NCBI RefSeq assembly: GCF_947495625.1
Contig: NZ_CANLZW010000014.1
Span: forward strand, 1-64,000
Reading direction: 5' to 3'
DNA from: an uncultured Cocleimonas sp.
Lineage (GTDB): Bacteria; Pseudomonadota; Gammaproteobacteria; Thiotrichales; Thiotrichaceae
DNA length: 64,000 nucleotides
A program made the translations under genes and the position numbers. The notes under the pieces were generated by a model. It did no database searches, had not been told where the DNA came from, and saw only the letters and a list, made by a program, of their open reading frames with translations. Shown one piece after another: positions 55,069-57,570 of the stretch. Each line of letters begins with the position of its first letter. Positions within the stretch are counted from its first letter, which is position 1.

Positions 55069-55566
55069 TTAATTGGCGAATTCCCTAAGAAATTGTCGTC
55101 GTTGTTGCTGATCCATCTGACGCAATTCTTGGCGCAGTGATTGACGTTCTGATGGGCTCATAGAACGGAATTTATTTCTTAACGCACGTCTTTGCTTATT
55201 GGGTAGATTATTAAACCACAGCCTTTGTCTGATGATTCTTTTTTTCTGTCTGGGAGTAAGCTTACGAAATTGTTTATAACGCTCTCGAGCTAGCTTTCTT
55301 TCTTCATTATTTAGCTTCTTCCAGTTTTTAAAGCGTTTCTTTAGACGTTTCTTTTGTGCTGGTGTAAGTGTCTTCCAGCGTAATGCCGCTTTGCTCAGTT
55401 TTTGTTGGCGTTGCTCACTAAAGCTGTTCCACTGGTTCACAAATGGTTTAAGTGTTTGCTGTTGTTCTCGCGTTAGAGACTGCCAATCTAGCGCGCTCAC
55501 TTGTGAACTCAACACTAGAAATACACTGAGTATCAACGTTCTTATTAGTTGTGTATGGTTAATCAT
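55069..55566 (-). CDS. Exported basic DUF3106 protein
   Basis: A 165-residue protein with a signal peptide ending VSA-LD. The rest is repetitive, extremely R/K/Q-rich helix: LSKAALRWKTLTPAQKKRL, FKNWKKLNNEERKLARERYKQF and RKLTPRQKKRI follow the DUF3106 pattern (L-T-P-x-Q-R/K). Last gene of the ECF sigma operon, with its start overlapping the previous stop (ATGA). The same order (sigma, DUF3619, DUF3106) is common in proteobacteria. Role unknown, perhaps envelope related. Confidence 0.83.
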   Translation of the reverse strand: MINHTQLIRTLILSVFLVLSSQVSALDWQSLTREQQQTLKPFVNQWNSFSEQRQQKLSKAALRWKTLTPAQKKRLKKRFKNWKKLNNEERKLARERYKQFRKLTPRQKKRIIRQRLWFNNLPNKQRRALRNKFRSMSPSERQSLRQELRQMDQQQRRQFLREFAN

Positions 55567-55805
55567 TGTAATGGGTCTTCCGTACTGTGTTTATCAAAAT
55601 CACTACCATCGTTATATTCGGCTTCTGACTCAAGCCAGTTTTCAAAGCCATCTCCAGTGACTTCTGTCATATCTGCGAGAAACTCAAGGAAGTCAGAACT
55701 CACCTGTTCATGACTTTGATCCTGACCTTCATTGCTGTTTGCATTCGCCTTGGCTGATAACATTGTCATTACCATGAAGAGTAAAATGGCAGGTTTAGCT
55801 TTCAT
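55563..55805 (-). CDS. Small exported acidic protein in the ECF sigma operon
   Basis: About 80 residues. Signal peptide MKAKPAILLFMVMTMLSAKANA, then an acidic mature part (DFLEFLADMTEVTGDGFENWLESEAEY). Its start overlaps the end of the DUF3619 gene and its stop overlaps the DUF3106 start, so it is translationally coupled. Acidic, next to a strongly basic partner; could pair with it. Family not recognised. Confidence 0.65.
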   Translation of the reverse strand: MKAKPAILLFMVMTMLSAKANANSNEGQDQSHEQVSSDFLEFLADMTEVTGDGFENWLESEAEYNDGSDFDKHSTEDPLQ

Positions 55806-56142
55806 CCAGTGACTCATCCAACCATTGATAAAAATCGAGTTGCGTGTATAAATCCATATCTACATCAGCACTAAGCATATCAAGATCTTCAAGCGGTGAG
55901 AGCTTGCTAGCAGTTAACTGAGGTACAATCATAAAAGCCAGGACGCTGGCGATTGCCAATCCTGCACCTGCACCAGTCAGCCATTTTTTAGAAAGCCAAA
56001 CACTTTTTTCTGTTTGAGATAAGGCTATATTGCGTGCTTCACGCAAGCGCTGCGCAGTATCACTATTGAGTGATTCGACTTGTTGGTCAAATGCCTGCTT
56101 TGCATGTTGACTAATATCTGATTGATTATCTTCGTTTGTCAT
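55795..56142 (-). CDS. DUF3619 family protein, probable anti-sigma partner
   Basis: A 115-residue protein with a soluble N-terminal part (about 1-62, AFDQQVESLNSDTAQRLREARNIAL) and one membrane helix (about 68-86), followed by a short periplasmic tail. This is the DUF3619 plan and that of small anti-sigma proteins: cytoplasmic sigma-binding part plus transmembrane anchor. It overlaps the sigma gene by four bases (ATGA). Likely holds the sigma factor inactive until an envelope signal arrives. Confidence 0.8.
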   Translation of the reverse strand: MTNEDNQSDISQHAKQAFDQQVESLNSDTAQRLREARNIALSQTEKSVWLSKKWLTGAGAGLAIASVLAFMIVPQLTASKLSPLEDLDMLSADVDMDLYTQLDFYQWLDESLDES

Positions 56143-56708
56143 AAAGAAAATTCCTCTAAACTCGCTCTTAAGCTAGAAAGCGCTCTTGAATAGTGTGTTT
56201 TAACGCTACCTTCAGAACATTTCATGGCATTAGCAGTTTCTTTTGTGCTCATTTCTTCCCAGGCTCGAAGCATAAATGCCTGTTGCTGTCTGAGTGGTAA
56301 TGCACTGACTGCCACTTCAACTTTTTCGCTAAACTCAAAACTACTTATATTGTCTTCGGGTAATTGGTCATTTTCATTGCTTTTGTTTTCTAATGGTGAA
56401 TCTCTAAAACCTTCACCTTGAGTGGACAATTTGTCGTTTCCTAACCAACTGCGCCAACGGTTTCTTACTTTTTGCCGACGGTGCCAGTCATTAATTCTAC
56501 TTTGCACGATTCGGTAAAACAAAGGTGGCCATTCATGGCTGTTTTTATTTGAATACTTACTCACCAATTTGATCATCGCATCTTGAACGATATCAAAGGC
56601 AACGTCCTCATCTCTGGTTGCAACTCGCGCCATAATGAAAGCTCGCTTTTCACTATGGATTAAGAATTGCTCGAGATTCTCAAAGGTATTGTCGTTATCA
56701 GTATTCAA
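56139..56708 (-). CDS. ECF-type RNA polymerase sigma factor
   Basis: A 189-residue ECF sigma factor. Region 2 covers about 25-90 (VATRDEDVAFDIVQDAMIKLVSKY... PPLFYRIVQSRINDWHRRQ) and region 4 about 125-180 (VSALPLRQQQAFMLRAWEEMSTKETANAMKCSEGSVKTHYSRALSSL). It starts with TTG, preceded by CAGGAAT. It lies next to a mirror-image promoter pair and heads a coupled four-gene operon, so it likely activates its own operon and the divergent gene. Confidence 0.92.
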   Translation of the reverse strand: MNTDNDNTFENLEQFLIHSEKRAFIMARVATRDEDVAFDIVQDAMIKLVSKYSNKNSHEWPPLFYRIVQSRINDWHRRQKVRNRWRSWLGNDKLSTQGEGFRDSPLENKSNENDQLPEDNISSFEFSEKVEVAVSALPLRQQQAFMLRAWEEMSTKETANAMKCSEGSVKTHYSRALSSLRASLEEFSL

Positions 56709-56731: not shown

Positions 56732-56816
56732 AACGCACGATCTTAGATTTGGTTGACAAACAAAGATAAAAAAATTTTTTAAACAAAATTGTCAACCAAA
56801 TTCAAGTTAACTCGTT
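56732..56816. promoter_or_regulatory. Mirror-image divergent ECF-type promoters
   Basis: ATTTGGTTGACAA (56747-56759) and TTGTCAACCAAAT (56789-56801) are a perfect 13-base inverted repeat. On each side TGTCAACC is followed after exactly 15 bases by CGTT: plus strand 56790-56797 with CGTT at 56813-56816, minus strand 56751-56758 with CGTT at 56732-56735. That fits -35 and -10 elements of one ECF sigma factor driving the sigma operon and the basic repeat protein. Confidence 0.7.
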
Positions 56817-56917: not shown

Positions 56918-57529
56918 ATGAAATTATTTAACAAAAACAAAATTGTAGCACTAAGCGCATTTAGCTTATTACTTACTTCCGCATTTTTTACTCAAGTGGC
57001 AGTCGCAAATACCAATAGCCCAGGTATAGATACAAAACAACAGAACCAGAAAGACCGCATTTTACAAGGTGTAGATTCTGGCGAACTTACCGGTAAAGAA
57101 GCATGGCGTCTGGGTAAACAACAAGGAAAAATTTACCATAAAGAGCAACGTTTTAAATCGGATGATCAATTTACACGTCGTGAACGAGCCGTAATTCACC
57201 GAGATTTACTCAAGTCATCTAAAAGCATTTATGTGCAAAAGCATGATCGACAAGTGCAGGGTGCAAATAGCCCAGGCATTAGAAACCCCGGAATAAACCA
57301 TCGACAATTCAATCAGGCAAGACGGATTGGTCAGGGCATACGTTCGGGTGAGTTAACAAGAGGTGAAGCGTTTAGACTAGGTCATCAGCAAAAACGAATT
57401 AACCATCAAAAGCGTCGTTTAAAAGCAGATGGTACTTTTACCAAGCGTGAGCGTATAAGAATTCATAAACATCAGAATCGCGCATCAAAAAATATATATC
57501 GCAAAAAGCATAATGCTAGAACTAGATAA
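56918..57529 (+). CDS. Exported basic protein with two ELT/REA repeats
   Basis: A 203-residue protein with a signal peptide ending AVA-NT. Two ~75-residue repeats of the mature part each run SPGI, then Q...RI-QG--SGELT--EA-RLG-QQ-KI, then K-D--FT-RER--IH, ending ASKNIY/SKSIY. The same repeat is present once in the 33597-34358 protein. Strongly basic. GAGGA precedes the ATG. Its promoter region holds one of the two TGTCAACC sites, so it probably belongs to the ECF sigma regulon. Function unknown. Confidence 0.8.
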   Translation: MKLFNKNKIVALSAFSLLLTSAFFTQVAVANTNSPGIDTKQQNQKDRILQGVDSGELTGKEAWRLGKQQGKIYHKEQRFKSDDQFTRRERAVIHRDLLKSSKSIYVQKHDRQVQGANSPGIRNPGINHRQFNQARRIGQGIRSGELTRGEAFRLGHQQKRINHQKRRLKADGTFTKRERIRIHKHQNRASKNIYRKKHNARTR

Positions 57530-57530
57530 T

Positions 57531-57570
57531 TAATCAAAAAACGCCACAAATTTGTGGCGTTTTTTGATTA
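57531..57570. terminator. Perfect 40-base palindromic terminator
   Basis: TAATCAAAAAACGCC... mirrored by its complement, centred at AAA/TTT, followed by TTTTTT. Ends the basic repeat protein gene and probably the converging 57598 gene too. Confidence 0.92.

Follow-up and report, generated by a model that had tools for sequence, protein, structure and literature searches.

A predicted pair of divergent, autoregulated ECF sigma factor promoters on an inverted repeat in an uncultured Cocleimonas sp.

A perfect 13-base inverted repeat was found in the window, the stretch of 64,000 nucleotides from an uncultured Cocleimonas sp. that was analysed as a whole. The repeat very probably contains the back-to-back -35 elements of the promoters of an autoregulated NF006550 ECF sigma factor, which would control envelope proteins. 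An autoregulated ECF promoter pair had been claimed in an earlier note on this DNA. The claim is supported because the promoter spacing is fixed in 38 of 50 sigma upstream regions, both promoters are kept in five genomes of the genus and the motif co-occurs with the sigma factor in 44 of 52 motif-bearing genomes of the class. Direct reading of the letters confirmed that TGTCAACC-N15-CGTT is present on both strands within the perfect inverted repeat, as the note had also stated. The locus comprises the following features.

55069..55566, minus strand: DUF3106 protein, basic, with a signal-like N-terminus (DUF3106 9e-26; composition)
55563..55817, minus strand: acidic protein of 84 aa with a signal-like N-terminus (...DFLEFLADM...; translated ORF)
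55795..56142, minus strand: DUF3619 protein with a single predicted TM helix (DUF3619 27 bits, cut-off 22.2)
56139..56708, minus strand: ECF sigma factor with a TTG start (NF006550/PRK09047; Sigma70_r4_2)
56732..56758, minus strand: predicted ECF promoter of the sigma operon (-35 TGTCAACC at 56758-56751, 15-bp spacer, -10 CGTT at 56735-56732)
56747-56759, no strand: left arm of the inverted repeat, ATTTGGTTGACAA (minus-strand -35 element and flanks)
56760..56788, no strand: A/T-rich stretch between the arms (sequence)
56789-56801, no strand: right arm of the inverted repeat, TTGTCAACCAAAT (plus-strand -35 element and flanks)
56790..56816, plus strand: predicted ECF promoter of the 56918 gene (-35 TGTCAACC at 56790-56797, 15-bp spacer, -10 CGTT at 56813-56816)
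56918..57529, plus strand: basic protein with two tandem ELT domains and a signal-like N-terminus (translation, domain comparison, composition)
57531..57570, plus strand: terminator-like hairpin with a T-run, 3' of the 56918 gene (consensus scan)

The arms are complementary over 13/13 bases, and the pairing can be extended to 18 bases at 89%. The minus-strand element is aimed at the TTG start of the sigma gene at 56708 and the plus-strand element at the ATG at 56918. The -35 octamers lie 31 bp apart at this locus and 20 to 111 bp apart in relatives. The A/T-rich stretch at 56760..56788 is a possible shared UP element.

The sigma factor has a length of about 189 aa and scored 219.4 bits against NF006550/PRK09047 (cut-off 173), with the model covering residues 5-187. 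Region 4 matched Sigma70_r4_2 up to residue 178 of 188 with 52.9 bits (cut-off 25.7, E 2.8e-14). Region 2 scored 16.5 bits with Sigma70_r2, under its cut-off of 24, and comparison with PDB sequences gave weak matches only, to FliA and SigW. The closest named relative found was Cocleimonas flava, with a 98% identical counterpart (L061), which places the window in Cocleimonas or close to it. By eye, the start codon was TTG in 5/5 genus genomes (56708 in the window; L089, L092, L093, L094), and this conservation suggests that a low translation of the sigma factor is maintained. The sigma and DUF3619 genes have 4 bp in common, and one TM segment was predicted, by crude criteria, in 49/49 DUF3619 homologues. 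The DUF3619 protein is a likely anti-sigma factor because of its single predicted membrane helix, the gene overlap and its conserved position. A predicted membrane-anchored protein is thus encoded together with the sigma factor, as in sigma/anti-sigma pairs. A small acidic ORF with a hydrophobic N-terminus was located between DUF3619 and DUF3106 in 32/48 loci, as judged by a crude criterion. The AlphaFold2 model of the DUF3106 protein was an all-helical, confident chain of short helices with a mean pLDDT of 91.5. No match to this model was found in the PDB by Foldseek, and the best hit of the profile among PDB sequences was an unrelated protein (E 0.056). Throughout, 'exported' denotes an N-terminus that looks signal-like in its hydropathy or on inspection, and export is a prediction from it.

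The set of sigma relatives comprised 58 loci, 50 of them distinct, and 400 bp upstream of each sigma match were searched. TGTCAAC-N16-CGT[TC] was present in 38/50 distinct upstream regions and never appeared in 200 dinucleotide-shuffled versions of these regions. Spacings of 10-23 other than 16 occurred once, at 17. When the first T could also be C and the fourth base also A, 42 promoters were aligned. Among the 12/50 regions lacking the exact form, L059 had one additional spacer base, and L062, L074, L079 and L081 had one altered -35 base at unchanged spacing. L065, L075 and L084-L088 showed no such element in the 400 bp searched; L084, L085, L087 and L088 are betaproteobacterial. The order sigma-DUF3619-DUF3106 was conserved across the sigma relatives, with DUF3619 downstream of sigma in 49/50 distinct loci and DUF3106 in 48/50. 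Matches to DUF3619/DUF3106 were missing from the available stretches of L054 and L049. A -35 with AAC, a -10 with CGT, an ECF-like spacing and conservation, as expected of an autoregulated ECF promoter, were all found.

The promoters were retained in the genus. In the own genome (G000) and in G001, G007, G008 and G010, the sigma and ELT genes are divergent neighbours, each with TGTCAACC-N15-CGTT, and the promoter on the 56918 side is kept before the homologous gene in the latter four. The gap between the -35 octamers was 31 bp in G000, 31 bp in G001, 20 bp in G007, 111 bp in G008 and 30 bp in G010. This comparison of sequences strongly supports two independent promoters and not a fixed palindromic operator or hairpin, because the gap varies while both promoters stay. 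In G008 (L033/L093), the extra DNA between the promoters contains, by eye, an imperfect inverted repeat, GACCTTTACACAAAAGAG ... CTCTTGTGCAAAGGTC. It resembles a small insertion and provides a naturally occurring case of the two promoters being apart.

The protein encoded at 56918 was assigned to no family over cut-off in Pfam and NCBIfam. Its AlphaFold2 model showed two three-helix units with a pLDDT of 78.4. Foldseek returned nothing with an E below 2 for this model, and a second fold comparison yielded generic helical bundles only, with a best Z of 9.3, a value common for helical proteins. The search of the ELT profile against PDB sequences gave nothing convincing. The loops SGELTxxE and DGxFTxxE give the ELT domain an EF-hand-like look. 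The domain was considered as a degenerate EF-hand and this assignment was rejected, as only the signal peptides aligned when its profile was compared with that of the EF-hand protein from L178. One ELT domain was counted in G010 and two in each of the other four genus genomes. The terminator scan found 2 candidates in the region against 2.7 expected in shuffles, which is weak evidence for the hairpin taken alone.

In the family sample of 63 genomes, a sigma match (threshold 1e-20) was found in 41 and an ELT match (threshold 1e-5) in 18. The fetched stretches of 13 further ELT-like family loci (L123-L135, including one from this genus) contained no TGTCAAC...CGT[TC], nor did that of a second ELT copy in the own genome (L137). 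The link of ELT to the promoter is therefore limited to the five genus genomes. The targets claimed in the earlier note were thus borne out in part: DUF3106 operons follow the motif in other genomes, while ELT genes do so only in these five. Twenty further loci of the own family were picked by hand, and five of them had the site before a small exported Pro/Ala/Glu-rich protein (L141, L143, L146, L152, L156). Some other repeated sequences were observed in the family. An identical TGTCAACGACGGGCTAGAATGACCGTT was listed 12 times for G055 and 6 times for G060; it probably belongs to a repeat element with no connection to the sigma promoter. The sigma loci of genus g8, which includes both genomes, contain duplicates of named Thiothrix records. 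A second conserved site of this genus, TGTCAACCGAA...TTAATCGTT-like, was present in L139 (G048) and L140 (G050) and likewise in G051, G052, G055, G059, G060 and G061. No obvious common coding gene was located downstream of it in L139 and L140, and its product may be a small RNA or the transcript of a short ORF.

The own genome (4,603,868 bases in 89 contigs) was scanned with the motif and with the reversed pattern as control, and this check, proposed in the earlier note, was informative for the exact motif only. Exact TGTCAACC-N15-CGTT matched twice genome-wide, both times at this locus, and the reversed control had 0 matches. With up to two mismatches there was no enrichment (256 sites versus 279 control sites), and 11/13 one-mismatch sites were located inside ORFs of at least 100 aa. 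Based on these counts, the exact pair is not a product of chance and the loose scan is uninformative. The regulon in the own genome probably consists of just the two divergent transcripts, since the exact motif is found only there and looser searching was unhelpful. The two-mismatch matches included a dispersed repeat family starting with TGTCACCCCCCTACTT or similar and ending near GCACTTT (for example G000:C2:110823, C4:5358 and C7:80293). The one-mismatch site C14:70841 appears related to these repeats.

Across the class, 369 genomes were searched with TGTCAACC-N15-CGTTA, with the reversed pattern as control and a sigma threshold of E<=1e-40. The motif was present in 52 genomes and the sigma factor in 95, in 87 of them over cut-off; it was found in 0/14 well-known control genomes. 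The sigma factor was also present in 44/52 motif-bearing genomes (odds ratio 28.7, p=2e-22, where p overstates independence because the genomes are related), and in 42/50 after exclusion of three genomes of the own family. The reversed pattern occurred in 23 genomes, seven with the sigma factor (p=0.38). The overlap was incomplete on both sides, with 51/95 sigma-bearing genomes lacking the exact TGTCAACC-N15-CGTTA and 8/52 site-bearing genomes lacking a sigma match. Thirty further sigma loci of the class (L208-L237) had TGTCAAC-N16-CGT[TC] within 400 bp in 10 cases. Among the remainder, three had CGTCAACC at unchanged spacing and two had one additional spacer base; in L216, L221, L227, L228, L232 and L236, the same genomes carry the exact site farther upstream, before an extra first gene.

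The 60 class sites outside the family comprised 59 distinct ones, which were compared with 25 control sites. Sites outside ORFs of at least 150 aa numbered 38/59 (control 6/25), those with a sigma homologue within 1.3 kb downstream 26/59 (control 0/25) and those with an ORF with a signal-like start within 200 nt 28/59 (control 3/25). By manual reading, 42/59 sites were followed by the sigma operon, exported charged proteins or DUF4382-like lipoproteins. The sigma operon came immediately at 14 sites. A small exported charged or repetitive protein came first and then sigma at 12, and such a protein was present with no sigma within 1.3 kb at 9. DUF4382-like lipoproteins were next at 7 sites, and the three scanned were all over the Pfam cut-off (L165, L174, L188). 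The other 17/59 sites showed no such gene downstream on manual reading; one of them, L197, has a YHYH protein (9.6e-48). L171-L173, L182/L183 and L188/L189 look like sites of sister species. 'RGDRIEERLD'-like repeats were present in ten charged proteins (L158, L162, L171-L173, L182, L183, L202, L204, L265). These RGDRI(E/D)xRLD-like repeat proteins have signal-like N-termini. Five of them were scanned; L182 passed the Pfam cut-off as 'Phasin' (30.5 versus 28.8 bits), and L158, L162, L171 and L204 gave just weak coil-like scores. The L170 protein resembles LTXXQ proteins (0.0024, below cut-off). A second divergent pair, with a gap of 41 bp, was found in G122 (family f61, L178). Sigma-DUF3619-DUF3106 is encoded in one direction and an EF-hand protein (7.9e-19) in the other, so the symmetrical design exists elsewhere with a different exported partner.

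The paired elements could be read in other ways. A perfect inverted repeat of 13 bp with divergent genes on either side looks like a classical operator, and a dimeric transcription factor might bind it for both genes, with the CGTT matches being incidental. Against this, the -35 octamer gap is not constant: in relatives with both arms retained, it measures 20 to 111 bp. Beyond the genus, L178 was the only locus among those compared in which two divergent elements lie no more than 150 bp apart; elsewhere a single element is aimed at the sigma gene, and CGT follows it at the one fixed spacing in 38/50. An operator is therefore considered highly improbable. The arms also include GGTTGACA when read in reverse, so that each could be a sigma-70 -35 for the gene on its far side, with the ECF reading secondary. 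TTGACA is indeed a perfect sigma-70 -35 on both strands. On the minus strand, TTGACA-N18-TTTTAT matches the sigma-70 -10 at 4/6 positions, as does TTGACA-N17-TATTGT in G007, read by eye. However, TTTTAT has no A at position 2, the plus strand reaches a -10 match of at most 3/6 at 16-18 bp, and the consensus scan lists no site using the arms (10 sites in the region, 9.1 expected). Conservation in the sigma relatives follows CGT at a fixed distance. Housekeeping promoters as the main function are thus given very little credence, and a weak basal sigma-70 promoter could coexist with the ECF promoters.

It is also conceivable that the ECF promoters are real and are read mainly by a different ECF sigma factor of the cell. 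The own genome has 11 first-look sigma candidates, one of which passes 1e-20, and cross-talk between ECF groups is possible. Yet the motif co-occurs class-wide with the NF006550 sigma in particular and is placed before its gene in an autoregulatory position, which makes this option very unlikely. The preferred reading thus remains a promoter pair of the neighbouring sigma factor. The computations show the motif with its exact spacing, its conservation, its co-occurrence with the sigma factor and the gene order of the operon. We infer from the sequences that this sigma factor recognises both promoters, that the proteins are exported, that DUF3619 acts as anti-sigma factor and that a signal is involved. 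As a single-pass membrane protein, DUF3619 would hold the sigma factor as its likely anti-sigma factor. A signal from the envelope would release it. The recurrent exported charged proteins suggest the envelope as the origin of this signal, and the exported acidic protein and DUF3106 may take part in sensing it. With free sigma factor, RNA polymerase would transcribe the sigma operon itself to the left (sigma, DUF3619, acidic protein, DUF3106), resulting in positive autoregulation, and the gene of the exported basic ELT protein to the right.

A wider reading, on which the chances appear evenly divided, is that TGTCAACC-N15-CGTTA marks the NF006550 regulon across much of the Gammaproteobacteria. 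Its targets would be fast-changing exported polyelectrolytes and DUF4382 lipoproteins, with the sensor being kept and the charged effector exchanged by lineage. The polyelectrolytes would include Arg/Asp 'RGDRI' repeats and His-rich, EF-hand, LTXXQ-like, DUF3106 and ELT proteins, represented here by tandem ELT. The analysis gives a predicted precise promoter code and small regulon to a sigma group present in about a quarter of the class genomes (95/369). The recurrent targets point to a joint envelope task for DUF3619, DUF3106, DUF4382 and the charged repeats, which are families of unknown function.

The literature search retrieved no paper on DUF3106, DUF3619, PRK09047, or an ECF sigma factor with DUF3106 or DUF4382. 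The absence of the sigma factor from the 14 well-known control genomes may be a reason for the lack of papers on its partners. Searching for TGTCAACC with 'sigma factor' gave, by title, none on the NF006550 group, although the ECF reclassification may record the motif; Cocleimonas with 'sigma factor' gave papers unrelated by title. The sigma factor is by score a member of the NF006550/PRK09047 model 'RNA polymerase sigma factor', whose description names no regulon, promoter or function.

ECF41 sigma factors, studied in Bacillus licheniformis and Rhodobacter sphaeroides, are similar in having, in the parts of the source consulted, a narrow regulon via a bipartite motif (TGTCACA-n16-CGTC) before the sigma gene and a neighbouring target gene (PMC3426412). 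In the same source, ECF41 has a -35 of TGTCACA and a -10 of CGTC, in contrast to TGTCAACC and CGTT here; its proteins bear a large C-terminal extension, which was not seen here, and it adjoins COE genes (carboxymuconolactone decarboxylases, oxidoreductases, epimerases), none of which were seen here (PMC3426412). With about 189 aa and a -35 of TGTCAACC, the present sigma factor has neither the C-terminal extension nor the TGTCACA -35 of ECF41.

CnrX/CpxP/Spy-type sensors were compared with the DUF3106 protein without a Foldseek match, a negative that does not speak against a relationship. The systems CnrYXH (Cupriavidus) and RpoE-RseA-RseB (E. coli) each combine an ECF sigma factor, a single-pass anti-sigma factor and an exported protein in one autoregulated operon. 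The locus differs from these systems in that searches with DUF3106 and the ELT protein found no sequence or fold match to such solved structures. It resembles them in the co-encoding of an ECF sigma factor, a candidate single-pass anti-sigma factor and a predicted exported protein in an operon. As far as the sources were consulted, a -35 containing 'AAC', a -10 containing 'CGT' and control of the sigma factor's own gene are given as common to ECF systems in general (PMC3426412), and motif searches upstream of sigma genes as an established route to ECF promoters (PMC3817407). Because its AAC/CGT promoters, its predicted autoregulation and the route by which the motif was found are standard in this sense, the locus appears to be a new case of a known ECF type.
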